From Alicyclobacillus sp. SP_1 (GTDB lineage Bacteria > Bacillota > Bacilli > Alicyclobacillales > Alicyclobacillaceae), in assembly GCF_024706985.1 (NCBI RefSeq), contig NZ_JAMCCX010000023.1, forward strand, positions 1 through 44,254: 44,254 nucleotides of DNA, written 5' to 3'. A model generated the notes under the pieces. It made no database searches, was not told where the DNA came from, and worked only from the letters and a program-made list of their open reading frames with translations. Shown in pieces: positions 2,970-27,221 of the stretch; position 1 is the first letter of the stretch, and each line of letters begins with the position of its first letter. A program made the position numbers and the translations under genes.

Positions 2970-3788
2970 TCACACCGACACCTCGAGCAACGCATCGACG
3001 GCCGCGTCGCTACGCATCCAACCGCGCCTCGCTTCAAAGAACGTGCGGTGATGCAAAATCGTCCCATCCGCCAGCAGCGTGTGCAGCAGCATCATGACGG
3101 TGGTGGCTGCCATGAGGTTGGTCATCAGGCGCTGTGGGTTGGATACCGAGACCTCGCCGCAACGGACGTCGGTCGGCAGCTGGTCTTCCTCGATGAGGTC
3201 GGGGAAGACTTCGCCGGGGAACGGCAACACGGTCTGACCGTGACGACGCACACCGACGACGACTTGACCTTCCCAACCGCTGTTTTTCAGGTGCGCCAGT
3301 TGGTATCGGTCCAGGTGCTCCGGATGCTCCGGCATCGCGACCGCACTGTTCCCGCTGTCGATGTAGACGACGTCGGATTGTCGGTTCAACTGCTCGTGCA
3401 AGATGCGCCGTGTGCTGCCGTTGTCGACGCACGCGACGACGACGCTCTCCGGTTCGAACAAGCCTACCTCTGAGACGGGGGTTTCGTTGGTCACATAGTG
3501 CGGATACGCCGCAATCGACAAGCCGTAGGCTCGGGCGTAGCGTTCCGCGAGGACCGTCGCTTTCTTTTTCCCCACGTCGTGCGGCAAGAAGTACTGGCGC
3601 AAGAGATTCTTCTCTTCCACCGTATCGCCGTCCACGAGCAGGACGTCCGGAACGGACGCCCCTTGCTCTTTCAGGCTATAGAGAAGACGTGCCATCTGCT
3701 GCAACACGTAGCCTCCGGTGCCTCCGACGCCGATCAAGACGACGTTCTGCAACTGTCTTCGGTCGAGGACGTGCACGGGTTTGCTCAT
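2970..3788 (-). CDS. PRTRC-type ThiF/E1-like protein
   Basis: A 272-residue Rossmann-fold protein of the E1/ThiF/MoeB superfamily. It has a GVGGTGG nucleotide-binding loop at residues 20-26, LVDGDTVEEKNLLRQ at 51-65 (the acidic residue plus the N and R of the adenylation site), CVDN at 120-123, and a candidate catalytic Cys210 in DVRCGEVS. E1-like enzymes adenylate the C-terminal glycine of a ubiquitin-like protein. It overlaps the Ub-like/JAB gene by ATGA (3785-3788) and follows the E2-like gene, matching the PRTRC cassettes known mainly from proteobacterial plasmids. It is the last gene of this operon. Confidence 0.88.
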   Translation of the reverse strand: MSKPVHVLDRRQLQNVVLIGVGGTGGYVLQQMARLLYSLKEQGASVPDVLLVDGDTVEEKNLLRQYFLPHDVGKKKATVLAERYARAYGLSIAAYPHYVTNETPVSEVGLFEPESVVVACVDNGSTRRILHEQLNRQSDVVYIDSGNSAVAMPEHPEHLDRYQLAHLKNSGWEGQVVVGVRRHGQTVLPFPGEVFPDLIEEDQLPTDVRCGEVSVSNPQRLMTNLMAATTVMMLLHTLLADGTILHHRTFFEARRGWMRSDAAVDALLEVSV

Positions 3789-4735
3789 CGGGCCTCCTCC
3801 GTCTTCTTGAGGAAGTCTGTGTCAACCAGCGTCGATAAGTCGCCGTCGAAGAGGACCTCGGGAGCGAGCGGCCGGAAGTGACCACCGCAGGACATCCGAA
3901 ACAGCAGATCCGGACGGTCCTTGTCACAGCGGCCGAGCACACCGTAGAGCCCCGTTCGCACCTCGTCCGCATCGTCCGTGCTGCTGAAGAACGCAGGCAA
4001 TCGGCCGTGACTGTGGATGTGCGCGACGACAAAGAAGTCTTCGTGTTCCAACACCCCGCGACCGACGACGGAGACTGCGTTGGCATGCTGCTCGGGCCAG
4101 AGAACGGCAAATCCGCTTCGCCGATCATAGACCACGTACGCAAGATGCTCGACGTCCGGTTCTGCGTGACAGCGCGCGACGATGTCTCTTAAGCACGCGT
4201 AAGGCATCTTCGGGAGGTTCGCTTGAAACGCTGAGTCGGGTTCAAGCGTTCCCTGACCGCGCAGCGGGACTTGAAAGCGTCCCGTCTGCGTCTGCCGAAT
4301 TTCCCACGTCGTACCGTGTGCGTCGAGATAGTGGTACACCGGTGGCACAGGATCGCTCGGTGGGGTCCGAAAGACCGTGAGCGGACGATCCGTTCCTTTT
4401 TTGTGCGCTTTGAGAACCGGCACGATGTGGCCGTTCTCTGCGTCATACACCAGTTCGCACCGTTCTTTCGTCAGCTCGGGAAACTGCTCTGCCAACCAGG
4501 CACGCACCGCTTCAAGCTTCATGGTACGACTCGGTACGTCCAGGCGATGCCCCGCATAGTAGACGACACGGTCGATCTCGTAGACGTCCGGTTCGGGTTC
4601 TTCTTTCGATGCAGCGGGTGCCGTGGTTTTCGTTTTTTTCTTCGATGCCGTTGGTTCGTCGCTCTTGAAAGCTTTCGCTTCTTCCTCAGGCAAAAGGTCA
4701 AAGATGGACATCTGGTCTTGGTGTTCGAGTGTCAT
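3785..4735 (-). CDS. Fusion of PRTRC protein C (Ub-like) and protein A (JAB protease)
   Basis: A 316-residue protein from the ATG at 4735 (AAGGAGCG upstream). After a low-complexity Lys/Thr/Ala linker, residues about 50-114 match PRTRC protein C, a ubiquitin-like fold (RVVYYAGHRLDVPSRT, then FPELT, ending HKKG at 111-114). The C-terminal half is a JAB/MPN metalloprotease with HSHGRLPAFFSSTD at 241-254, an exact H-x-H-x7-S-x2-D zinc signature. In typical PRTRC cassettes proteins C and A are separate genes, so the fusion is unusual. JAB domains remove or mature Ub-like proteins. Gly114 would be the C-terminus of the Ub-like part if it is cut. Confidence 0.82.
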   Translation of the reverse strand: MTLEHQDQMSIFDLLPEEEAKAFKSDEPTASKKKTKTTAPAASKEEPEPDVYEIDRVVYYAGHRLDVPSRTMKLEAVRAWLAEQFPELTKERCELVYDAENGHIVPVLKAHKKGTDRPLTVFRTPPSDPVPPVYHYLDAHGTTWEIRQTQTGRFQVPLRGQGTLEPDSAFQANLPKMPYACLRDIVARCHAEPDVEHLAYVVYDRRSGFAVLWPEQHANAVSVVGRGVLEHEDFFVVAHIHSHGRLPAFFSSTDDADEVRTGLYGVLGRCDKDRPDLLFRMSCGGHFRPLAPEVLFDGDLSTLVDTDFLKKTEEAR

Positions 4736-4778
4736 CGTTTCATCGCTCCTTGGCGTGTTTTCTGTGCAGCGTGTGACC

Positions 4779-5513
4779 TTAAACACGGTATTGCCCGTGC
4801 CATTCCACCACCGTCGAGGAGAGTGGGATGAGCCACTCTGATCGGACCCCGTGCTCTGCTTCGACGGCTTCTAGAAACGCTGGGTAGTCTCGGTAAGGCG
4901 AGTTTTGAGAATGCCCTACGCCAAACAAGTCCCGGTTGTTCGGGGTTTGCAAAAACCCAAACAACATCTTTTCTTGAACGTCGTCGAGAGCGCACGTCGT
5001 CTCGTGCAACCCACTCCAACACACCGCCCCCGACGGATACACATTGGAGAACGGATAGCGATAGAGCGCGGTCGTTCCTCGCACGGTATCGTCAAGGGCA
5101 ACGGCGAGTCGACCCTGGAGCACCCGTTGCGTCGTTTCTTCCCACACCACTTGGTAGACGAGCGTGGGATAGCGAAGGCAGTAGACGCGCTCTTGATACA
5201 GCGTGGGATAGTCGAAGGACGGCACATACGCTGTCACCGCATGTCGGAGGCTCGACGACGACTCCAGCGTGTCGAGCGCCAGGACGCGTTCCGGTAGACT
5301 GGTCAGACGCGTACGGCGCAGATCCACCTGCTTGAGTTGTTCGAGGATGAGCGATCGGTCCAGCAGTTTGAGCAGTTCCTGGATTCCCACCGTCTTATAG
5401 TGATGGACGCCGTTCTCCACAATCTCCAGTTGAGGCATCGCTTTCGGCGTCATCCGCAACGTCAGAGAATCCCCGCAAGCGTCGCCATGCACGTGCATCT
5501 GCAACGTGTTCAT
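4779..5513 (-). CDS. PRTRC protein B (prokaryotic E2-like, family D)
   Basis: A protein of about 244 residues if started at the ATG at 5513; an upstream start would add 15 residues. The central YPFSNVYPSGAVCWSG (153-168) is the hallmark of PRTRC protein B, placed among the prokaryotic E2-like (Prok-E2_D) proteins. Cys165 is the obvious candidate for the thioester-forming residue. The protein sits directly before the Ub-like/JAB fusion and the E1-like gene, so Ub-like, E1-like, E2-like and JAB functions lie together. A GGAGG is 12 bases before the ATG, which is slightly long. Confidence 0.8.
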   Translation of the reverse strand: MNTLQMHVHGDACGDSLTLRMTPKAMPQLEIVENGVHHYKTVGIQELLKLLDRSLILEQLKQVDLRRTRLTSLPERVLALDTLESSSSLRHAVTAYVPSFDYPTLYQERVYCLRYPTLVYQVVWEETTQRVLQGRLAVALDDTVRGTTALYRYPFSNVYPSGAVCWSGLHETTCALDDVQEKMLFGFLQTPNNRDLFGVGHSQNSPYRDYPAFLEAVEAEHGVRSEWLIPLSSTVVEWHGQYRV

Positions 5514-6012
5514 AGTAGTTTTCAACCTCCCAAATCGCGATAAGCGACATCCAGGCATCCATCAGAACGTCGTCGGTGGGTTCCGCAATGGCCCACCCAA
5601 AGCCTGAGGCATCGTCCTGTGTGTACCATGCGTCGTCCGTGGACTGACGGATCCAAAACAGAAAGTGTTGCCACGTGTCGAGCGTCTTTGGATCGGAACT
5701 CGAGAACCAGACAAAACACCACGTTTCTGCCTTGGTCCAGTCTCCGCGAAGGCGTCTGAGATCCTCCCACATCTCCACGTTTTCGGTGTGATCAAAATGC
5801 AGCTCTGCCTGCAAATCGACGCCGATGAGTTCCAGCAGCGTCTCCAGTTGCCCGGCATAAATCGACGCTCCATCGCCCCCGTTCCAATCCACGCCGTACG
5901 GCCAACCGCAGGTGTCGAGGGCATGTTTCGCTCCGGTGCGCCACAACACATCGCGCAAGCACAGCAGGTGCAGTAAGGAGGCTTCCAGGTGATATCGTTC
6001 CTCGTCGTCCAT
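5395..6012 (-). CDS. Hypothetical protein upstream of PRTRC B (possible diverged PRTRC F)
   Basis: A 205-residue acidic, Trp-rich protein that I do not recognise. It overlaps the start of protein B by about 119 bases in another frame, which is long for this element, so its C-terminal 40 residues may be marginal. It starts on an ATG whose preceding base belongs to the stop region of the 109-residue gene before it. In PRTRC operons the gene before B is often protein F, so a diverged F is possible, but I see no motif to prove it. Confidence 0.55.
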   Translation of the reverse strand: MDDEERYHLEASLLHLLCLRDVLWRTGAKHALDTCGWPYGVDWNGGDGASIYAGQLETLLELIGVDLQAELHFDHTENVEMWEDLRRLRGDWTKAETWCFVWFSSSDPKTLDTWQHFLFWIRQSTDDAWYTQDDASGFGWAIAEPTDDVLMDAWMSLIAIWEVENYYEHVADARAWRRLRGFSDVADDAESDASTGDCGERRPSL

Positions 6013-7678: not shown

Positions 7679-8836
7679 TCACGCCGATTGCTGTTCGGCT
7701 TGACGCATGGGCGATAACAGCCCAAGCACGGTTCCCTCTTCCTGAGTCCCAGGTTGCAGGACGATCGGTTGATTCGGTCCGTTCAGTTTCCACGAGACCG
7801 TCTCGCCGGGGCATTGTTTCAGGAACTGCGTTAAGAGCTTTGCATTGAGCAACAGCCGGTATGTTGGAGGTTCGGTGCACTCCGCATACGATACCTTGTC
7901 GACGCCGCTGCCAAACTGTTGGGAGCGAGAAGAGATGCGCACGCCGTCCGCTTCAAAGTCGAATTCGACTTTGGTGTACGTCTCGTCGGAAAAGACGGCG
8001 ACGCCCTCGACGGCTTGCAACAACTCGACCCGATTCAGGCGCAGTTCGTGCGAAGCTCCTTGTGGCAGAATCCGCGACGTGTCGGGATACGTACCATCAA
8101 GCGCACGCATCACAGACCGATGCGCGTCGTCGTCCCAGGATACGGTGAGGGCGGACGGGCCGAATTCCAGTGAGACCCTTTCTTCCGCATCGTCCGGTAG
8201 GTGTTTGGCCAACGTGTCGAGCAGTTTGGCAGGCAGGACCCGGTCCACTCTGTCGGCATCGGTGTCTACGGGCAACGATACGGTCGATAACCGCATGCCA
8301 TCGGTTGCCGTCGCAAAGAGCACAGAGCCATCGAGTTGAAACCGAACGCCCGTCAGAATGGGACGCGTCTCCTGGTCGGATGCCGCATAGGCGACCATGC
8401 TGATGAGCCGCTTTAAACGTCGAGCATCCATAGAGACCGTCGTCTGCATCGCTGCTTGATTGCCGAACGCGACAAAGAGCGTTGGATCGCAGCCGGAGAG
8501 ACGAAGTTCGCGTTTCCCCGTGGTGACCAAGAGGTCCCAGTGTTCCGATGCCAGCGTCAGCGACGCCAAGCTCCGCCCGACGACGTCGTGCAGCATGCGG
8601 TAGGGGACACACACCTCACCGTCCTCCACGATGTGGACGTCGGATTCCATCACGCGTTCCCATAAGGTGACGCGGGTCGTGGCATCCGGATTCGTGGCCA
8701 AGAGATCGACGCGTGCTTGCGCTTGGTCGACCACAAGGCGGACGTTTTGGTGGCCTCTCGTGGAGTTTGGCACGACGTTCGGTCCAATCTCACGCAGCGC
8801 TTTCATCAAGGCATCCCGTTGCACGGTGAGTTTCAT
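7679..8836 (-). CDS. dnaN: DNA polymerase III beta subunit (sliding clamp)
   Basis: A 385-residue protein of full DnaN length with three clamp domains. Landmarks are the start MKLTVQRDALMKAL, the middle SDQETRPILTGV and FATATDGMRLS, and the C-terminal VVLQPG/LGLLSPMR-type end. The clamp tethers polymerase III to DNA. This copy sits among element genes, so it is probably an element-encoded paralogue rather than the chromosomal gene, which normally lies by dnaA. The ATG at 8836 has AAAGGAG ten bases upstream. The transcript also carries a CHC2 primase-like gene, suggesting a replication module. Confidence 0.93.
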   Translation of the reverse strand: MKLTVQRDALMKALREIGPNVVPNSTRGHQNVRLVVDQAQARVDLLATNPDATTRVTLWERVMESDVHIVEDGEVCVPYRMLHDVVGRSLASLTLASEHWDLLVTTGKRELRLSGCDPTLFVAFGNQAAMQTTVSMDARRLKRLISMVAYAASDQETRPILTGVRFQLDGSVLFATATDGMRLSTVSLPVDTDADRVDRVLPAKLLDTLAKHLPDDAEERVSLEFGPSALTVSWDDDAHRSVMRALDGTYPDTSRILPQGASHELRLNRVELLQAVEGVAVFSDETYTKVEFDFEADGVRISSRSQQFGSGVDKVSYAECTEPPTYRLLLNAKLLTQFLKQCPGETVSWKLNGPNQPIVLQPGTQEEGTVLGLLSPMRQAEQQSA

Positions 8837-8864
8837 TTGGCATTCGCTCCTTTTTGGACCCACA

Positions 8865-8902
8865 CCGCCGTGCAGGTCTGTTGAGTACAGAACCTGCGGC
8901 GG
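8865..8902 (-). promoter_or_regulatory. Stem-loop between the CHC2 gene and dnaN
   Basis: CCGCCG(T)GCAGGT with CTGT pairs with ACAG and ACCTGCGGCGG around a five-base loop, with one bulged base. There is no U-tract, so it is not a simple terminator. It may protect or process the message before dnaN. Confidence 0.55.
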
Positions 8903-8916
8903 CAGGGAGAGCGATC

Positions 8917-9426
8917 TCATTCCACGTGTTTTAAGGAGGCACGTTCATCACACGCCCGGAAGTGACGTTCCATACGTTCCGTGAACGCTCGCTCCCACGT
9001 CTCATGGTCTTTCCAAGCTGACCAAATCCAATCGAGACAATGTTGGCGGTAGGTTTGCCATTCCCTTTCGGAGAGATGCGGCGGTCGCACCCAAGGCTTC
9101 GACAAAAACCCGAGTCGCTTCAAGTCTTCTGGAGAAAGCGATTCGGCAGGATGTCTTTTTCTTGTTTTGCCCGCTGGATACAAGCGTTCTTTCGCTTGTG
9201 CAAACGAAAGTTCGTGCAACGTCGCGTAGAATTGAATCACTCCGCCATGCGCACCACAGCGGTGACAATAGTACGCATCTTTGCTGGCACTCAAATAAAG
9301 GTGCCAATGCCTAGCATCGTCATGGCAAAAAGGACAGTGACTGCGATATTCCGAGGCACGTGACGTGCGACGGAGCGGCAGCTGTGCGGCTTGTGCAACG
9401 TCCAAAATATGAGCCAACGTCCTCAT
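8917..9426 (-). CDS. CHC2 zinc-finger primase-like protein
   Basis: A 169-residue protein. Residues about 25-65 are the DnaG-type zinc-binding domain: HCPFCHDD, then a 20-residue loop, then YYCHRCGAHGGVIQFY. No TOPRIM domain follows, so it is only the DNA-recognition half of a bacterial primase; family members like this occur in plasmids and phages. It precedes dnaN in one transcript. The start ATG at 9426 has a GGAG twelve bases upstream. Confidence 0.85.
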   Translation of the reverse strand: MRTLAHILDVAQAAQLPLRRTSRASEYRSHCPFCHDDARHWHLYLSASKDAYYCHRCGAHGGVIQFYATLHELSFAQAKERLYPAGKTRKRHPAESLSPEDLKRLGFLSKPWVRPPHLSEREWQTYRQHCLDWIWSAWKDHETWERAFTERMERHFRACDERASLKHVE

Positions 9427-9461: not shown

Positions 9462-9611
9462 TCAGGCCGTCGAAGGATGGTTTTCCGAGAGTTCCGGAAG
9501 CACGTCACCAACACGAACATCTTGAAATTCTGTCCGCCACCGACCGTCGCCATCGCAGAGTGCGAAAAGCATCCAAGTCATGGCTTCATCGAATTCTTGC
9601 AGGTTGGTCAT
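9462..9611 (-). CDS. Small protein directly behind the leader RNA (copy 1)
   Basis: A 49-residue acidic peptide, MTNLQEFDEAM and onward, with a very strong AAGGAGGAGG seven bases before the ATG. I do not recognise it. It is the first gene after the terminator of leader RNA copy 1 and leads into the CHC2/dnaN operon, so it is the gene most directly exposed to whatever the RNA senses. Confidence 0.6.
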   Translation of the reverse strand: MTNLQEFDEAMTWMLFALCDGDGRWRTEFQDVRVGDVLPELSENHPSTA

Positions 9612-9647
9612 GTCGTTTCCTCCTCCTTGGTAAGAGGCCAGAAAACA

Positions 9648-10102
9648 CAAAAAAGCGAACACCAAAATGCCCCTCGACTTCCCCATGGGAAATCCTCGAG
9701 ACGCTTTTGCGTTCGCTTTTCATGAGCAGGCCAAAAAGAACCTGCGGTATGGTGTTTTCCAGCCTACTCGGCTTGGGTCTTTCGGCAGTTCGAAAAGCCT
9801 GCCAGCATGAGCACAGCGGGTCACTGCGCGAAGTGTATCACATCTGCGCCTGGACACTTTAATTTACCAGACTGCTGCGCAGAAGGCCATAGTGTAAGCA
9901 GTTTTACGTCTGCTCCGTGCCTGGGTACTGCTTTAACCCGAAGCTGGCACGTCAGGGTACAGGTGGTGCTTGGGAACCCAGGGACAACGACGGTGAGAGG
10001 CGACCTACGACGTCTATCAAGGTGTCGCTACGGAGTAGCCCTTGATGCATCCACAACTCGTCACGGAGTGACTCAGGCGCTGGGATGGAAAAAGTGTTGT
10101 AC
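9648..10102 (-). ncRNA. Large structured leader RNA, copy 1
   Basis: A promoter (TTGTTT at 10132-10137, 17-base spacer, TATGAT at 10109-10114) points leftward into about 455 bases dense in hairpins, for example GTCAC-TCC-GTGAC and an ATCAAGG...CCTTGAT stem enclosing GCTAC-TCC-GTAGC. It ends in a terminator whose U-run is about 25 bases before the strong ribosome binding site of the 49-residue gene. The placement suggests transcription attenuation of the primase/clamp operon. I cannot assign a known RNA class; large mobile-element RNAs such as ROOL or GOLLD should be compared. Confidence 0.65.
9649..9720 (-). terminator. Terminator at the end of leader RNA copy 1
   Basis: On the minus strand AAAAGCGAAC pairs with GTTCGCTTTT across an inner bulged stem with a TTCCC/GGGAA top, followed by a T-tract. 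In copy 2 three of the substitutions fall in this hairpin without destroying the outer stem. Confidence 0.8.
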
Positions 10103-10108
10103 AACGTC

Positions 10109-10137
10109 ATCATACTCCCTTCAAACCTAGAAAACAA
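10109..10137 (-). promoter_or_regulatory. Promoter of leader RNA copy 1
   Basis: TTGTTT (10132-10137), 17 bases, TATGAT (10109-10114) on the minus strand. Both hexamers and the spacing are kept in copy 2 (21790-21795 and 21767-21772). Confidence 0.7.
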
Positions 10138-10172
10138 GCCTACTCTCTCCCATCCATGGAACAAAGCGGTGG

Positions 10173-10188
10173 GCGTTCTTGAGAACGC
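10173..10188. promoter_or_regulatory. Palindrome upstream of the leader RNA promoter
   Basis: GCGTTCT-TG-AGAACGC, a 7-bp inverted repeat about 36 bases upstream of the -35 box, conserved in copy 2 at 21831-21846. It could be an operator; no matching regulator is identified. Confidence 0.4.
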
Positions 10189-10319
10189 TCGACCCGGCGG
10201 AGAAAGGGGCTCCAAAGCGGATTGTGCGAAACCCCAAAAGTCCTGAAGGCGCATCCAGAGCGCACAGAACGCAGGTACTTCCCACGAAACGCCCCCCGTT
10301 CCCATCCGCGTTCGAAACG

Positions 10320-10350
10320 AAAAAAGACCACCCCCTAGAGGAGTGGTCTT
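10320..10350 (-). terminator. Terminator after the SNF2 helicase gene
   Basis: On the minus strand AAGACCAC...GTGGTCTT followed by TTTTTT, 40 bases past the helicase stop. It separates the helicase transcript from leader RNA copy 1. Confidence 0.85.
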
Positions 10351-10389
10351 CAGTATGGCTCGGTGAGACACGATGATGGGCACCGAGGT

Positions 10390-19747: not shown

Positions 19748-20215
19748 TTAAAATGGTAAATCGTCGTCGGAGAGGTCCATATCGTCGGCAAACGGGTCGT
19801 CCTCATACCCCGCAGGCCCCCGAGGAGCGGGCTGCACCGGGATCGAACCTGTCACCGGTCGCGGCGGTGTAGCCGAAGGGCTACTGGTACCGTTGTTCGC
19901 CTTGTCCAGGAAACGCACCGACTCGGCGACGACTTCTGCGACGCGGACTTTGTGTCCCTCGCGGTTCTCGTACGACCGAATCTGAAGCCTTCCATCGACG
20001 GCGGCCAAGCGGCCTTTTTGCAAATACTGCGCCACCGTCTCGGCTTGCTTTTGCCACACGACGACGTTCACAAAGTCGGTCTCCCGTTCTCCGGCCGCAT
20101 TCGGACGGGCACGGTCGACGGCGAGCGTGAAGCTCGCAACCGCCGTACCGCTGTTCGTATAGCGCAGTTCCGGGTCCTGGGTCAGGCGTCCAATGAGGAC
20201 AATACGATTCATCAT
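19748..20215 (-). CDS. ssb: Single-stranded DNA-binding protein
   Basis: A 155-residue OB-fold SSB: start [20 protein letters not shown], then FTLAVDR and [14 protein letters not shown], a Pro/Gly/Ser linker, and the acidic tip SDDDLPF that recruits repair and replication partners. It follows the directionality-factor gene and, like the dnaN operon, is downstream of a copy of the leader RNA. AAAGGAGCGAAAA precedes the ATG. It is probably the element's own SSB. Confidence 0.95.
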
Positions 20216-20239: not shown

Positions 20240-21271
20240 TTAGCTCGCCGAAGACTGCGTTGCCGTCCACGGCTTTAGTTGGGTCATCTCGATGAATTCG
20301 GGACGAAGCGTACTGGGGACGCCTTGCACCGCCTCGACCCTACTGCCGACTTCCAGTCGTTTCAGCAGGGACAGATGCGTCGTGTCGTGCGTGCAGTACG
20401 TCGTCGTCTGACCGTCGGCGTCCAGGAGCTTGAGAAAACCCCAACGAACACGGTCGTACGTCTTGATGGCGACATCGACCACGACCAGCGGCTCTTTGGG
20501 AGCCTTGGCCGCTTGAATGTCCACATCCCGGACCAAGTTGTCTTCGATGTACAAGTCATCGGGCATCTCATCCGAGACGTCGACCACCGGGGCATCGAGG
20601 ACCATCGTCGGGATCCGGTGAATGAGTTCTCGGATCTTCACGTCCTCCAGCTTCAAGTCCAGCACGTACACCGTCTTGGTCTTCCCATCGGGACTCACCG
20701 TCTGCGGCACGACCCGCAACTTGAGCGGGATCATCGCAATGCGGCCGCGCGTGAGTTGACGGATCATCTGAACGCAAGCTGTGAGGTTTTGCGATCCGAA
20801 GTACGACGTCGTGTCGATCTCCCAAATTCCAATCCCTGGGACATCGGGTAACAAGAACAACAGTCGTGTCAACGGTTTGCACTTCTTCTCTTTGAAGATC
20901 GGGCAGTCCTTATACAAACACGGGACGTCCACATATCCGCCCTGATCGTCGGCACGTCGTGCCGTTTCGCCGTCTCCTTTGCACCACAGTTCGCTTTTCC
21001 CAAGGGCTCCCCGATACGCCGACAGATACTGCGGCATAAACACTTCCGGGTCGTCCGAAGGGAAGGCGATGGTGATGTCTTTCGGCTGGTCTCCGTACAC
21101 GGCGTGGAAGGCGTTCGCCGCTTCCGTGGTCGTGTTGACCCCATCGGCGCGCACCACAAAATGGTCGGTCGCCGTAGGGTAGGTCTTCCCACTTGGGTGT
21201 TCTTGCTTGAGACCGAGATAGATTTTGCCTACCCTCGGCAAGCGTTTGGGCTCACTGAAGCCTTTGATCAT
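20240..21271 (-). CDS. Recombination directionality factor-like protein (phiC31 gp3 type)
   Basis: A 343-residue protein. Its N-terminal region (LPRVGKIYLGLKQEHPSG, FHAVYGDQPKDITIAFP) and a Cys cluster (LWCKGDGETA, then VPCLYKDCPIF and KKCKPL) match the family of phage recombination directionality factors that turn large serine integrases from integration to excision. Databases often call such proteins hydrolase or metal-binding. It is the first gene behind leader RNA copy 2, with AAGGAGGAGG upstream. No integrase is in the window. Confidence 0.65.
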   Translation of the reverse strand: MIKGFSEPKRLPRVGKIYLGLKQEHPSGKTYPTATDHFVVRADGVNTTTEAANAFHAVYGDQPKDITIAFPSDDPEVFMPQYLSAYRGALGKSELWCKGDGETARRADDQGGYVDVPCLYKDCPIFKEKKCKPLTRLLFLLPDVPGIGIWEIDTTSYFGSQNLTACVQMIRQLTRGRIAMIPLKLRVVPQTVSPDGKTKTVYVLDLKLEDVKIRELIHRIPTMVLDAPVVDVSDEMPDDLYIEDNLVRDVDIQAAKAPKEPLVVVDVAIKTYDRVRWGFLKLLDADGQTTTYCTHDTTHLSLLKRLEVGSRVEAVQGVPSTLRPEFIEMTQLKPWTATQSSAS

Positions 21272-21305
21272 GCGTTCCTCCTCCTTGGTAAGAGGCCAGA
21301 AAACA

Positions 21306-21760
21306 CAAAAAAGCGAACACCAAAACGCCCCTCGACTCCCCCACGGGAAATCCTCGAGACGCTTTTGCGTTCGCTTTTTATGAGCAGGCCAAAAAGAACC
21401 TGCGGTATCGTGTTTTCCAGCCTACTCGGCTTGGGTCTTTCGGCAGTTCGAAAAGCCTGCCAGCATGAGCACAGCGGGTCACTGCGCGAAGTGTATCACA
21501 TCTGCGCCTGGACACTTTAATTTACCAGACTGCTGCGCAGAAGGCCATAGTGTAAGCAGTTTTACGTCTGCTCCGTGCCTGGGTACTGCTTTAACCCGAA
21601 GCTGGCACGTCAGGGTACAGGTGGTGCTTGGGAACCCAGGGACAACGACGGTGAGAGGCGACCTACGACGTCTATCAAGGTGTCGCTACGGAGTAGCCCT
21701 TGATGCATCCACAACTCGTCACGGAGTGACTCAGGCGCTGGGATGGAAAAAGTGTTGTAC
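21306..21760 (-). ncRNA. Large structured leader RNA, copy 2
   Basis: The same layout as copy 1: promoter TTGTTT (21790-21795) and TATGAT (21767-21772), a body identical to copy 1 over about 350 bases, and a terminator at 21307-21378. It is followed by the ribosome binding site and ATG (21271) of the directionality-factor gene. The two RNAs could coordinate replication and excision by the same signal. Confidence 0.65.
21307..21378 (-). terminator. Terminator at the end of leader RNA copy 2
   Basis: AAAAAGCGAAC/GTTCGCTTTTTT outer stem on the minus strand with a T-tract. The top is altered from copy 1 (CCCGTGGG in place of CCCATGGG) while pairing is kept. Confidence 0.8.
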
Positions 21761-21766
21761 AACCTC

Positions 21767-21795
21767 ATCATACCCCCTTCAAACCTAGAAAACAA
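21767..21795 (-). promoter_or_regulatory. Promoter of leader RNA copy 2
   Basis: TTGTTT, 17 bases, TATGAT on the minus strand, identical to copy 1 in both hexamers and in spacing. Confidence 0.7.
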
Positions 21796-21976
21796 GCCTA
21801 CTCTCTCCCATTCATGGAACAAAGCGGATGGCGTTCTTGAGAACGCTCGACCCGGCGGAGAAAGGGGCTCCAAGGCGGATTGTGCGAAACCTCAAAAGTC
21901 CTGAAGGTGCATCCAAAGCGCACAGAACGCAGGTACTTCCCACGAAACGCCCCCCGTTCCCATCTGCGTTCGAAAG

Positions 21977-22002
21977 AAAAAAGCCAACTGCCATGAGTTG
22001 GC
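21977..22002 (-). terminator. Terminator after the YdjM-like gene
   Basis: GCCAACT-CATGGC-AGTTGGC followed by TTTTTT on the minus strand, 34 bases past the stop of the membrane protein gene. It closes the transcript that begins in the pilus region. Confidence 0.85.
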
Positions 22003-22035: not shown

Positions 22036-22794
22036 TTAGAACACGAGCATGCAGAGGAACGAGGCGAACGCGATCAGACCAATGCCTCGATCTTGCCAAC
22101 TGCCGGTTTGCACAAGGCGAACACCCAACCGCTTTGGCCAGGGCCAAAGGAGCGGCACCCCCCCTGCCACGGCATCGGCGAGGAGGTGCAAGAGGTAGCC
22201 CAGCAGCACTCCAATGGAGAGCAGGGGCCAATGCAGCGAGGCCCAAGCTGCGGGCATGGGACTGGCCAACGCAGCTGTGGCCAGCAGGGCGACGGCCAAC
22301 AGACTATGCGTGAAGGTCCGGTGCTTGCTCCACATCGCTCCCACACACCACAGCACAAGCCCAGCCGCCGCGAGGATCGGCACGACGTGCCTGAACGCCA
22401 GATACCCTATCCCCAGTGAAAGAAGTCCTAACCCGATGCGGCGCGACCCATTGTGCGCGGTTCGAGAGGCAAGGGTCAGGGCCAACACACCGGCCCACGC
22501 AACCCACAGCGACGCGAGATGTAAGAGAAACACCAGCCCAGCCGCTCCGAGCAGGGTCGTGAACACGACAACCTGTTCGAGCTTGCGAGAAGCAAGGCTA
22601 TGGAACTCATCCAGGTCTGGCAACAGAGAACCGAACAGACAGGCGACAAGGTATCCGAAAAACCACGCTATCGAGGGGGCGGCATGGGCCACCAGCATCC
22701 ATCGAAACAGCGGTTGCTCCGGTGTCCGCAACAGGATGGGAGCGGTGAGAACGGCCCCTACTGCGCCCATCGCCATGTGACTGCGCCCCATCAT
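22036..22794 (-). CDS. YdjM-like membrane-bound metal-dependent hydrolase
   Basis: A 252-residue protein with about six membrane spans. It has the YdjM/LexA-regulated hydrolase landmarks: an early GRSHMAMGAV, SLLPDLDEFHS, a SKHRTFTHSLLAV motif rich in His/Asp ligands, and HLLADAVAGG later. The reaction of the family is unproven; a lipid or envelope substrate is likely. AGGAGG precedes the ATG at 22794. It is the last gene of its transcript, before a strong terminator. Confidence 0.82.
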   Translation of the reverse strand: MMGRSHMAMGAVGAVLTAPILLRTPEQPLFRWMLVAHAAPSIAWFFGYLVACLFGSLLPDLDEFHSLASRKLEQVVVFTTLLGAAGLVFLLHLASLWVAWAGVLALTLASRTAHNGSRRIGLGLLSLGIGYLAFRHVVPILAAAGLVLWCVGAMWSKHRTFTHSLLAVALLATAALASPMPAAWASLHWPLLSIGVLLGYLLHLLADAVAGGVPLLWPWPKRLGVRLVQTGSWQDRGIGLIAFASFLCMLVF

Positions 22795-22806: not shown

Positions 22807-23664
22807 CTATCCAACCAACGAGCCTACGATGAGTTTTTGATCGTCGTCGCAACGATGGACTCGGATGAGCACTTTATCGCCCATGCGAAATACGGTACGC
22901 TCTGCCGCGACGACCGACCGACACAGCACCCCATCGTGCAAGTACGCGTACAACACATTCCCTCGCATGCCACGGACGGTCCCCGACCATATCGAGCCCG
23001 CTGTATACTGATGTTTGCGCACATCGTACGGATTGGCCTGTGCTTCTCGACGGGAGACGATGAGCCGGGTTCGCTTCCTTCGCTCGTCCTGTTGGAGTAT
23101 CTTCACATCGATCATATCGCCCCGTTGAAGCACGTGCGGCGCATTGACGTCGTATGACACGTGGGACAGCGGTAAAAACGCTTCAAATCCTCCTACATCC
23201 ACCAGGTATCCATAGTTGTTGCGTCGTCGAATGACGCCCGTCCAGGTGACGCCCGGACGCACTTTGTCCAGATTCGCTTTTTGCATCGCTTCCAGGGCAC
23301 GACCCCGCGAAAACAAGTACAGCGTGCGTCCTTCCGCCGTATGAAAACGATCCGGCATGCAGGCCAGGTATTGCCCCACGATCCGCGGCCACGAAGCCGT
23401 ATGGCGCATGCCGCTTTCCGACAACGGGATATGTCCGAGGAGCTGTCCGAATGCCACAATGAGCGCGGGTTCCTCATGCCACTGCTGACCCTCAGCCGTC
23501 TTGTGGTAGTGACGGATGGTTTCGTAACCTACCACGCGCGCCTGCACGATGGTGTTGTTGCTCCGAAATTGGAAATACGCGTTTTGGGCTTCGTCTTCGG
23601 TCTGGAGCGTCTCTTTGCCAAGTAAGGCTCCTTCTGCGGTGATGTTGATATAAATGTCTTGCAT
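22807..23664 (-). CDS. S1-domain RNA-binding protein
   Basis: A 285-residue protein. Residues about 135-205 form an S1 RNA-binding domain (VRPGVTWTGVIRRRNNYGYLVDVGG, FLPLSHVS, LQRGDMIDVKIL); a second OB-like segment follows (AGSIWSGTVRGMRGNVLYAYL). The N-terminal half is unrecognised. It may act in RNA binding or translation control for element genes. AAAGGGGAGAG precedes the ATG. Confidence 0.75.
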   Translation of the reverse strand: MQDIYINITAEGALLGKETLQTEDEAQNAYFQFRSNNTIVQARVVGYETIRHYHKTAEGQQWHEEPALIVAFGQLLGHIPLSESGMRHTASWPRIVGQYLACMPDRFHTAEGRTLYLFSRGRALEAMQKANLDKVRPGVTWTGVIRRRNNYGYLVDVGGFEAFLPLSHVSYDVNAPHVLQRGDMIDVKILQQDERRKRTRLIVSRREAQANPYDVRKHQYTAGSIWSGTVRGMRGNVLYAYLHDGVLCRSVVAAERTVFRMGDKVLIRVHRCDDDQKLIVGSLVG

Positions 23665-24079: not shown

Positions 24080-24493
24080 TCACAGCAGGCTATGACTCAA
24101 CAAGACGAGTGCGTATCCGCCCCATAAAAACGGGACCAACGCCAGTTTGCCGTGCCTTCTGCGCACCACAGCGTGCGCTAAGAGGAGGCCAAGGCTGGCC
24201 GCGATCCCTTCGAGCGATAGCATAGGGCCGAGCGTGGCTCCAAGCGCCAGCAGCATCCATCCATCGCCACTGGCCATATGGGCGAACCGATGCAACACGC
24301 CCCACATCATCGCCATGAGCCAAAGACCCAGCCCAGACGATACGAGCGTCAAGAGACTACCAAATTCCCAAAATCGCAAGGTGATGCCCATCGCGAACAG
24401 TCCGATCAGCCAAAGCACCCGAAACCGCCGATGTTGATAGTCTTCCCACGCCGCAGGCATCATCCAGAGCAGCGCATTTCCAAGCAGCATCAT
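24080..24493 (-). CDS. A24 prepilin peptidase (TadV/CpaA-like)
   Basis: A 137-residue integral membrane protein. The first catalytic Asp lies in AAWEDYQHRRF (Asp18) and the second in the xxGD motif ASGDGWML (Asp77), which is the aspartyl prepilin peptidase arrangement. It is short and lacks the methylase domain, as in Tad systems. It would process the small pilin-like proteins encoded upstream in the transfer region. Its start overlaps the stop of the GT-C-like gene (TGATG). Confidence 0.78.
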   Translation of the reverse strand: MMLLGNALLWMMPAAWEDYQHRRFRVLWLIGLFAMGITLRFWEFGSLLTLVSSGLGLWLMAMMWGVLHRFAHMASGDGWMLLALGATLGPMLSLEGIAASLGLLLAHAVVRRRHGKLALVPFLWGGYALVLLSHSLL

Positions 24494-25929
24494 CACGATT
24501 CCATCCTCCGCACAAAGACGTCGTAGTAACGACCGTGATACGTCGCTTGCCAATGTCGGGAGTGGTCTAGGAGCGTAGCGAGCGGTGCCGTGCGCGCAAG
24601 GGCTGCGTAGCGAATGCGCTCGCTTCTCAGCACGTGCATCGCGGACGGCCCCGCCAGAGTGGTTTGCATGTAGGTACGCATCATGCCGTCGGACAAGTAC
24701 AGCCCTGTGCGGCCGTCGATGGATACGGGAATGCCGACCGTCTCCAACGTGCCGCCGAGATCGTACCCATTCCATAGCCGCCAGTGGGGATGTTCACGAT
24801 GGATACGTTCGACGACGGATACGACCTTCGGTTCGAGTTTTGGCACAGCATGGTCTGTCAGTGTGCCACGGATGGGCAAGACTTCGAAGAGACTAAGACC
24901 GGCCAGTCCGAGCGCGCACCCGAGGGCAGCACCTGCAGGCCATCGCAACGCCTTCCGAGGCGCACGGAGAGAGGCCAGCGGTGTCCCCCAAAGCGGCAAC
25001 AACAGACACACATACGACCCAAATCGCACGGCTTTGGCAAAGAGCACGAGGGCTACGAGCAGTAGCAACGTGTCCCACAACGACATCGGAGCCTTCACGA
25101 TCAATCGCCATATCGTCCATCCCAGTCCAGCGATCAAAAGACCTGCTGTATACAGTTCGGTGGCTACAGGCGGCTGCCATTCGAGGATGTATCGGCCGAT
25201 GTGTGCCCCCAACGACAGCCAGACCACAAACTTCCACAAGGCATATCCCCGAGGATTCAGACCGGTCAGTGCGGTCATACCCACACCCGTCCACAGGGCC
25301 TGTTTGCCCCACGCACGGTCTTGCTCGTGCTCCAGCCAATGCAGGCGAAACGTCGGGAGATACGCCACCATGCCTGCCCCGAGGACGAGTGCGATACCGA
25401 GCACAAAACTGCCATGGACGTTCACCCATACGACGTCCAGAAGCAGGAGCGAGAGCGTGGCTTGCCACCGATACCGTTTCGCTAAGTACAGCAACCACAA
25501 GGTGCAGACCACAAAGAGATACGACCAGGTCTCCGCGCGAATTTGATCCCAAGGGAGCGAGAGCACCGCCATAGCGGCCGTCACGGCTTTTGGATACGCT
25601 TGTCCGCGTGCTTGCAACAGCAGGGCGAGCAGGGTCCACGTGGCGGTGGACACCAAGGTCATGAGCAAGACCACGCCTCGGAACAAAAACGCTTTGGAGA
25701 CCCACGACAGCACCACGTCGAACCCCCACTCTTGCGCGACCCAGGGATGGCCGAACGCCGTCCAGGTCCAATGATCGTGCATGGGGACATGCCGATGCAC
25801 GATCATCCAATGCCCGAAATACGCACTCCAGATCGTATCGGACGTTTGAAACGGCGTTTTATAGAGTGTCAAAAAGAGCAGCGCGATGCAAAGTGTCCAC
25901 AGGCTCCAGGAGACCCGACGATTCACCAT
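24493..25929 (-). CDS. Multi-span membrane protein, GT-C glycosyltransferase-like
   Basis: A 478-residue protein with about ten membrane spans. An early loop has [20 protein letters not shown], and a C-terminal part holds [11 protein letters not shown] and [12 protein letters not shown]. Both match a family of uncharacterised GT-C-fold-like membrane proteins related to dolichyl-phosphate mannosyltransferases. It could glycosylate pilin or surface proteins, but no substrate is known. The ATG at 25929 overlaps the end of the actin-like gene; the upstream reading frame is only the shadow of that gene's repeat tract. Confidence 0.7.
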
Positions 25930-27221
25930 AAGGAACGCCCTTCTCGGAAGCGTTTGGGGATGGCTGGCTCTGGTCGAGGCTCTGGTCGAGGCTCCGGTCG
26001 AGGCTCCGGTCGAGGCTCCGGTCGAGGCTCCGGTCGAGACTCCGGTCGAGACTCCGGTCGAGGCTCCGGTCGAGGCTCCGGTCGAGACTCCGGTCGAGAC
26101 TCCGGTCGAGGCTCCGGTCGAGACTCCGGTCGAGACTCCGGTCGAGACTCCGGTCGAGACTCCGGTCGAGACTCCGGTCGAGACTCCGGAGTATGCGACG
26201 GTGTTGGGTGCGATGTGACACCGCGATCCTGTCCTTGCATGGCAGCTAAGCAACCTAATGCGTTGGCCCACTGGGCATTCTGGAGCACTTCTTCCGACGC
26301 GTGCAACCGAATCGATGCGCTGGGCGGATCCAACACTTCAGCGCCTCCCCCTCCCCAAAGTACCGTGCGGATGCGTGCCTTTTGCGGTCCCCACAACTCG
26401 AGGACCTGTGTCCGTAGCGTCGTCAGAAGCCGTTGTTTGGCCCGGTCGACCTCGGCGGGGAAACGCCAATCCTGCCCGGCATAAAACATAGTGCCCCGCT
26501 CGACGACACGTTCGGCGAGCTCGGTCTCCAGTCTCGTCCCTGTTTGTGCTTCAAAACTCTGACGGACCACCGCCGTCAAGTCTCTGGTTCCGTGATCCAA
26601 CGTAGCCGACAAGGCGTCATGCACGAACCAGTCCTCTCCGAGACGCTCCAAGACGACGACTTCGGTCGTCTCTCCACCGACGTCGATGAGGGCCAAATAT
26701 CCATCGTCGAAGGCGAGCAGGGGCGTCCCCATCAAGAGATACGCACTCACAAGGCCCTGAGCAAACGTCTCCACGCTCTCGATGTGGTAGGAACGTGCTG
26801 CTCTCCCCGGTACCCGAAGCTCGGGCGTCTGTCCTTTGAGTGTCTGTGCGAACAACCGTCCCTTCTCGACATCCCGGTACGGAAAATCCAGACTGAGATG
26901 GATCGGCTCGTCTTGGCCGAGCATCGCGATGGCCGCCCAAATGAGCAGTGTGGCCGAACCGCTCTCAAATCGTGTGTTGCCAAAGACGTATTCGGGGAGT
27001 AGACCAAATCGTTCGGCCATTTTCCCAAGGTAGACATGCTTCTCTCCATCCTCAGCGACGAACGACATCTGCATCGTGTCCGAAGAGGGCAGTACGGATC
27101 CCTTGAGGCTATGCACGGGACGCGGTTTGCCGGGCGCATAGACGGAGCGGAACAGGACGCGTTCTCCGGTGTCGGCGACCGCTTTGACGTATCGATTGCC
27201 TAGGTCGATGGCGATGTTCAT
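25923..27221 (-). CDS. ParM-like actin ATPase with PE(S/P)R repeat tail
   Basis: A 432-residue actin-fold protein: phosphate 1 loop [15 protein letters not shown], phosphate 2 loop [15 protein letters not shown], and adenosine loop [11 protein letters not shown]. Such proteins form filaments that push plasmid copies apart. The tail from about residue 340 holds roughly 18 tetrads PESR or PEPR, encoded by a 12-bp repeat, before a basic end ([11 protein letters not shown]). No ParR partner is evident. It is placed within the pilus/secretion unit, so it may act in assembly or positioning rather than segregation. The start follows AAAGGAGG. Confidence 0.85.
25975..26190 (-). repeat. 12-bp tandem repeat in the actin-like gene
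   Basis: About 18 units of CCGGTCGAG(G/A)CT. The G/A difference distinguishes the PEPR and PESR tetrads. In another frame the same DNA reads STGV/STGA, so the tract is open in several frames. Confidence 0.9.

Follow-up and report, generated by a model that had tools for sequence, protein, structure and literature searches.

The described systems closest to the locus analysed here are antiterminators of mobile elements, attenuated plasmid leaders and large ornate RNAs, and the statements below on conAn, canT, pIP501 and the ROOL, GOLLD and OLE RNAs follow five papers (PMC8955417, PMC11658703, PMC4981023, PMC12286853, PMC5643018). In these accounts, canT, an RNA antiterminator of 452 bp, belongs to the Gram-positive mobile element Tn916, and conAn of pLS20 comprises the ConAn1 protein and the conAn2 RNA. 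The repR gene of pIP501 has a 329-bp leader with premature termination and an antisense RNA, RNAIII. The functions of ROOL, GOLLD and OLE are called poorly understood.

We analysed two leader modules in the window, by which we mean the whole 44,254-nt stretch of Alicyclobacillus sp. SP_1 DNA, a plasmid-like element. The modules share with conAn and canT, as these are described, an RNA near the start of long operons of a Gram-positive mobile element that would act against terminators. They differ in that the leader itself includes a terminator just before the Shine-Dalgarno sequence (SD), that replication and excision genes lie downstream, that the window has no excess of internal terminators and that the proposed partner is an S1-like protein, a distinction drawn from descriptions. 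The long leader with predicted early termination before plasmid replication genes recalls pIP501 repR as described; here, however, there is no conserved antisense promoter, the conserved structure is larger and more complex, and it is common to several operons of one element. Size, a complex fold, pseudoknots and residence in mobile elements or extremophile bacteria are shared with ROOL, GOLLD and OLE as portrayed in these sources, whereas the modules match no Rfam family and stand before replication and excision genes, not near tRNAs (none in the window). Finally, the Bacillus rplJL (L10(L12)4) and trp (TRAP) attenuators, as described, likewise set a ribosomal or RNA-binding protein on a leader terminator; the window leader is far larger, belongs to a mobile element and has an S1-like protein with putative binding. 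We propose that the modules represent a large leader RNA of a new class, of attenuator type and probably operated by the element's S1-like protein, a reading that we hold to be evenly balanced between right and wrong.

Anatomy of the duplicated module

The segments 9617-10317 and 21275-21975 agree at 686 of 701 positions with 15 differing positions and no indel, and outside them identity is at background, which bears out the full-length, indel-free match reported in the sequence-only reading. The invariant core of the pair is 354 bp long (offsets 135-488), a gapped alignment covers 727 columns at 97.2% identity, and a search of the 3.4-Mb genome of the strain at E 0.001 returned modules 1 and 2 only. 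The features of the two units and of the neighbouring S1-like gene are as follows.

10323..10351, minus strand: terminator (insulator) directly upstream of module 1, 13-bp stem, from the terminator scan
10109..10137, minus strand: module 1 promoter, TTGTTT-17 nt-TATGAT (-35 at 10137-10132, -10 at 10114-10109)
9649..10105, minus strand: module 1 predicted leader RNA, about 459 nt between the chosen start and the U tract
10009..10088, minus strand: module 1 type B 5' domain, hairpins P1 and P2, from the covariance model
9649..9721, minus strand: module 1 terminator, long hairpin and U6, with the SD 20 nt later
9617..9628, minus strand: module 1 Shine-Dalgarno region
9462..9611, minus strand: 49-aa ORF, first gene after module 1 (start codon 9611)
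8917..9426, minus strand: CHC2 zinc-finger protein
7679..8920, minus strand: DnaN-like sliding clamp
21983..22002, minus strand: terminator (insulator) directly upstream of module 2, from the terminator scan
21767..21795, minus strand: module 2 promoter, TTGTTT-17 nt-TATGAT (-35 at 21795-21790, -10 at 21772-21767)
21307..21763, minus strand: module 2 predicted leader RNA, about 459 nt
21667..21746, minus strand: module 2 type B 5' domain, P1 and P2, from the covariance model
21307..21379, minus strand: module 2 terminator, hairpin and U6
21275..21286, minus strand: module 2 Shine-Dalgarno region
20240..21271, minus strand: recombination directionality factor (RDF), Gp3-like (start codon 21271)
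19748..20215, minus strand: single-strand DNA-binding protein, ssb
22807..23664, minus strand: S1-like RNA-binding protein, the proposed partner
22036-22794: YdjM-like gene between the S1-like gene and module 2

Both units run on the minus strand in the order terminator, promoter, RNA of ~450 nt, strong terminator, SD and gene. Module 1 leads into the 49-aa ORF, CHC2 and dnaN, and module 2 into RDF and ssb; the CHC2/dnaN and RDF/ssb operons named earlier are thus both present, the small ORF preceding CHC2. The -35/-10 pair with 17-base spacing that had been pointed out is found in both modules, with a poor -35 and 8 of 12 consensus letters by hand count; a standard promoter scan found none and did not list it. 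Folding of 466 nt gave z -3.60 on the minus strand (0/100 shuffles equally stable) and z -1.82 on the plus strand (3/100), which agrees with the earlier description of about 455 bases of hairpin-rich RNA, as does the predicted length. The terminator followed by a strong ribosome binding site is likewise there as a hairpin with U6 and an SD 20 nt on, and the window modules thereby have the layout of attenuator leaders, namely a promoter, a structured leader and an intrinsic terminator before the first SD.

Recurrence and conserved structure of the leaders

The Rfam/Infernal search that had been suggested, run at gathering thresholds with Rfam 15 (ROOL, GOLLD, OLE and the other 4227 families), gave no match in the window, and the module searched at E up to 10 yielded a single chance match (E 4.2). 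The one match in seven related loci was a group II intron that lies outside the leader, and four related loci gave none at E up to 0.5. No Rfam riboswitch matched the window or the module, and we found nothing pointing to a small-molecule ligand for the leader. Of the earlier alternatives, attenuator or riboswitch, the attenuator layout stands and the riboswitch lacks any such pointer. The suggestion of a new class of large regulatory RNA fits both the missing Rfam family and the covarying structure shared by the relatives described below. Searches of an open-licence paper library turned up no description of this leader class. The RNA class appears to be new, with a function that resembles known leader attenuation.

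At the DNA level the module had no relatives in plasmids and phages, and none in 398 genomes of the phylum except in its own genome. A search of 59 genomes of the order, with E up to 10 allowed, gave, apart from the two modules themselves, nothing but short matches that look like chance (best 24 nt, E 0.003). Yet an RDF protein query led to Alicyclobacillus plasmids and to 16 of these 59 genomes, and the RDF-encoding elements of Alicyclobacillales carry leaders of 407-722 nt at the same place, in two structural types that we name type A and type B. It is therefore, as judged by sequence comparison, the arrangement and not the letters that recurs. A. acidoterrestris carries on plasmid pDSM3922.1 a duplicated module of its own (94.9% identity over 489 bp), unrelated to the window leader by BLAST, with copies ending just before RDF and just before a small ORF and CHC2; a third, less similar copy (17 RNA-body differences) precedes a gene annotated as AcrIIA9-like, followed by a PcfJ-domain gene. 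Near-identical leaders stand before the CHC2 and RDF operons of A. suci, which has a third copy, and on two contigs of A. tolerans, one before RDF and one before CHC2. Of the 22 loci, which include the ALC3 plasmid, the A. mengziensis chromosome and NC_013206.1 of A. acidocaldarius, 17 have CHC2 immediately upstream of RDF, in what looks like a single operon, three have the two genes split (the window, L033 and L061), and two show RDF alone.

The recurrence has departures. The A. mengziensis and A. ferrooxydans leaders are without an outer U tract, the second type B copy of A. macrosporangiidus has no recognised replication gene downstream, and two type A matches (L127 and L131) show no terminator motif within 2.6 kb. 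In viral contigs, RDF and CHC2 queries with single proteins gave no match; an RDF alignment found 11 distant viral loci, and the type A pattern was absent from these contigs. Four Thermoanaerobacter-type loci (L092-L095) searched with the R1, R3 and S1 queries gave no leader match, and weak S1 matches in three. A coding function of the leaders was rejected, the longest stop-free stretches of five leaders disagreeing in strand and frame. The genome of the strain itself also contains fragments of other related elements: on contig C43 (L059) a second RDF, 91% identical, that follows CHC2 and has a type A-like terminator; on contig C71 (L127) a type A 5' domain; and on contig C65 a second S1-like gene, of type A.

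The limits of the repeats indicate what has been duplicated. In pDSM3922.1 the match between copies begins at -4 of the predicted start and extends 74 nt beyond the leader end, and in A. tolerans it begins at -29 and extends 70 nt beyond. Promoters differ at 37/60 positions against 4/312 in the RNA body in pDSM3922.1, and at 28/60 against 10/403 in A. tolerans; because promoters diverge while RNA bodies remain nearly identical, the repeated unit is the RNA. In the window pair the match starts at -220 and the RNA body differs at 2/364 positions. Since the element needs origins, its two long direct repeats could instead be a DNA-level repeat (an origin or recombination site) or a recent chance duplication devoid of RNA function, the least probable of the readings that we weighed, given the covariation described below, the repeat limits close to transcript limits in two other elements and the leaders at the same place in single-copy elements.

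In type A, the 5' domain consists of a GCACG/CGUGC helix closing GGG/CCC and GGAG/CUCC, plus a crossing GCGC/GCGC helix. An alignment of 17 rows has 92.3% of its cells paired, and 25 of its 37 pairs have changed on both sides; it scores 0.326 for covariation, compared with 0.123 in shuffled and at most 0.087 in slid alignments. The pseudoknot pairs in all 16 rows scored, one of the 17 being cut at its end, with examples such as GCGC/GCGC, GCAG/CUGC and GCGU/ACGC. The model found type A in 11 of the 59 genomes of the order, weaker matches and locus reading add A. montanus and ALC3, and beyond the order a 398-genome sample of the class held no further case. The R1 training set omitted L032 and L067 (misaligned by MAFFT), and both are in the later counts. 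Leaders of this type, for instance L065 and L067, contain repeated GGAGUAGC...GCGAAGAA hairpins by eye, whose AGUA/GAA loops seem to resemble bulged-G (loop E) motifs.

Type B is built of hairpins P1 and P2, each a 5-bp tip with a triloop, and the window belongs to it. With filters off and both strands searched, the covariance model R3, trained free of the window, ranked the two modules first and second at a modest 20.3 bits and E 0.0083 each (next match 10.4 bits, E 1.3) and marked no non-standard pair in them; when the default filters were on, nothing in the window was reported. Over nine distinct rows including the window, the covariation score is 0.364 (shuffled 0.221, slid 0.170 at most), 76.4% of cells are paired, and the P2 tip is fully (100%) paired, with two-sided change in four of its five pairs; of five measures one, further pair types, shows no excess (22 against 22.6 in shuffles). 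The alignments of both types were fitted to the structures, which favours these scores. A model whose training set includes the window found type B in 7 of the 59 genomes, and the 398-genome phylum sample held none outside the window's own genome. This model covers the 5' domain only, as a whole-leader alignment (one row empty) gave no consensus fold.

The covariation analysis called for earlier thus finds a strong signal in type A and a present one in type B. G-U cells outnumber A-C cells, which would be G-U on the opposite strand, by 40 to 14 in type A and by 22 to 15 in type B; this favours the transcribed strand, weakly in type B, and the covariation confined to the other strand that would have spoken against the sequence-only reading was not seen. 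By eye, the P1 and P2 triloops are the same within one RNA in 7 of the 9 distinct type B rows (UCC, UAC, UAG or UAA). Six type B leaders (L033, L035, L060, L063, L066 and L070) also have, by eye, a second hairpin with CUCCC/GGGGAG arms that follows the terminator and reaches the SD, which would suit a gate on translation as well; the window has no such hairpin.

A unit with its own promoter and terminator, insulated, of this size and, in type A, with a pseudoknot could be a free-standing large ornate RNA like ROOL or GOLLD, made for its own sake, with the downstream genes expressed by leakage past the terminator. We think this distinctly unlikely: the copies stand directly before operon SDs, and several elements carry two or three of them at such positions.

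The S1-like protein as candidate partner

Ribosomal protein S1 is the nearest match of the window S1-like protein, both in sequence (bS1 chains, E 2.6e-21) and in predicted fold, where bS1 is the top Foldseek match (E 5.5e-14, TM 0.45) for a middling model of mean pLDDT 72.7. The window protein alone among four tested passes the Pfam S1 cut-off, its relatives being more diverged. The S1-like gene stands upstream of the leader, at a distance of 61 to 1044 bp in the eight loci measured; on the ALC3 plasmid and in the elements of A. mengziensis, A. ferrooxydans and G421 it is kilobases from it. The ALC3 copy (NZ_CP066785.1, 5682-6518) is annotated as 4-hydroxy-3-methylbut-2-enyl diphosphate reductase, which looks like a misannotation.

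The S1-like proteins diverged together with the leader types. A tree of S1 from 13 elements splits by leader type in one change, with support 100/100 and all 13 sorted. The RDF tree of 14 elements requires three changes of leader type, a single clade being rejected (AU p 0.0004), and the CHC2 tree of 16 elements four (p 0.016), although the latter is weakly supported, with long branches and with starred branches that force only one change. L065 (leader A) and L066 (leader B) are 87% identical in RDF and 90% in CHC2, against 27% in S1. High-scoring S1-B occurs in exactly the 7 of 59 genomes that bear a type B leader, and S1-A in 15 of 59, including 12 of the 13 with a type A leader (two of these 13 from locus reading); the profiles were built partly from the genomes surveyed. 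The one type A genome outside this match is G452, where the leader is close to the end of a contig, and three genomes with S1-A (G399, G410 and G453) are without a type A model match. Linkage of the neighbouring S1 gene and leader could also explain the co-sorting, at least in part. A protein partner, the S1-like protein of the element, is a better lead than a small ligand.

Proposed control of read-through

In the arrangement that we favour, each module would be an insulated transcription unit that makes a structured leader RNA of ~450 nt. Transcription would start at the module's own promoter, the RNA would fold, and by default the polymerase would stop at the terminator 20 nt before the SD. 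Because the SD directly follows the terminator, the operon could be expressed only by read-through or from a promoter hidden in the leader. A strong terminator thus separates the only evident promoter from the SD, which makes read-through the natural control point. We infer that the RNA is produced and that the terminator functions. The structured 5' domain, most likely bound by the S1-like protein, would set how often the polymerase reads through; this binding and the direction in which the protein acts are inferred too. One factor would then jointly set CHC2/DnaN for replication and RDF/SSB for excision. A more specific version, a two-part mobile-element switch in which the giant leader RNA and a dedicated element-borne S1 copy form a complex on the transcribing polymerase and gate the replication and excision operons together, is offered tentatively as a minority possibility.

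Three scans bear on this mechanism. The best antisense promoter exceeds the 95th shuffle percentile in only 3 of 16 leaders, scattered and never at a shared place. The order of leader, terminator and replication genes, which is that described for repR of pIP501, would suit a copy-number attenuator controlled by an antisense RNA that is read from the leader's opposite strand; in view of this result we hold it very unlikely. Antiterminator pairing was as good in 1/60 shuffles for the window's two leaders, with a candidate 14-nt run, and in 3/60 for L060 and L066, the pairing places differing between leaders; in 12 of 16 leaders at least 11/60 shuffles did as well, so a general antiterminator pairing was not found. 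The shuffles in both scans were simple ones. A crude scan of the window showed no excess of internal terminators, with 51 terminator-like sites over the two strands where about 44 would be expected; on the minus strand the strongest of them adjoin the upstream ends of the two modules.

The last scan speaks against processive antitermination, in which the leader RNA, with or without the S1-like protein, would modify the polymerase to ignore the adjacent and later terminators, which themselves stop stray transcription. Size and place similar to canT, the pairing of protein with RNA in conAn (both as described) and a copy of the 5' domain in A. montanus, without a terminator and 33 nt before an exonuclease gene, argue for it. 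This A. montanus copy also speaks for a 5' domain acting on its own. We judge processive antitermination rather unlikely, and it is the main rival; the protein-assisted attenuator is favoured because no conserved antisense promoter, no general antiterminator and no excess of internal terminators in the window were found, and the free-standing ornate RNA comes third.

If the protein-assisted attenuator is right, the modules would bring in a large class of RNA whose regulatory place is evident, unlike that of ROOL, GOLLD and OLE, together with a candidate protein partner, and would account for the coupling of replication to excision on large plasmids and integrated elements of Alicyclobacillales. 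Relatives on the named plasmids NC_013206.1 (A. acidocaldarius) and pDSM3922.1 (A. acidoterrestris) make the class testable.

Elsewhere in the window, an ORF at 24493-26271, whose protein has no Pfam match, contains a short tandem-repeat array at about 25966-26189 with copies shifted by about 12 bp. A bacterial ubiquitin-like conjugation cassette at 2970-5558 (minus strand) encodes an E2-like protein (Prok-E2_D match below the cut-off), a Prok_Ub and JAB protease, and a ThiF E1 with weak PADLOC E1-E2 matches; plasmid p1 of Alicyclobacillus sp. TC has adjacent Mov34/MPN and ThiF genes.
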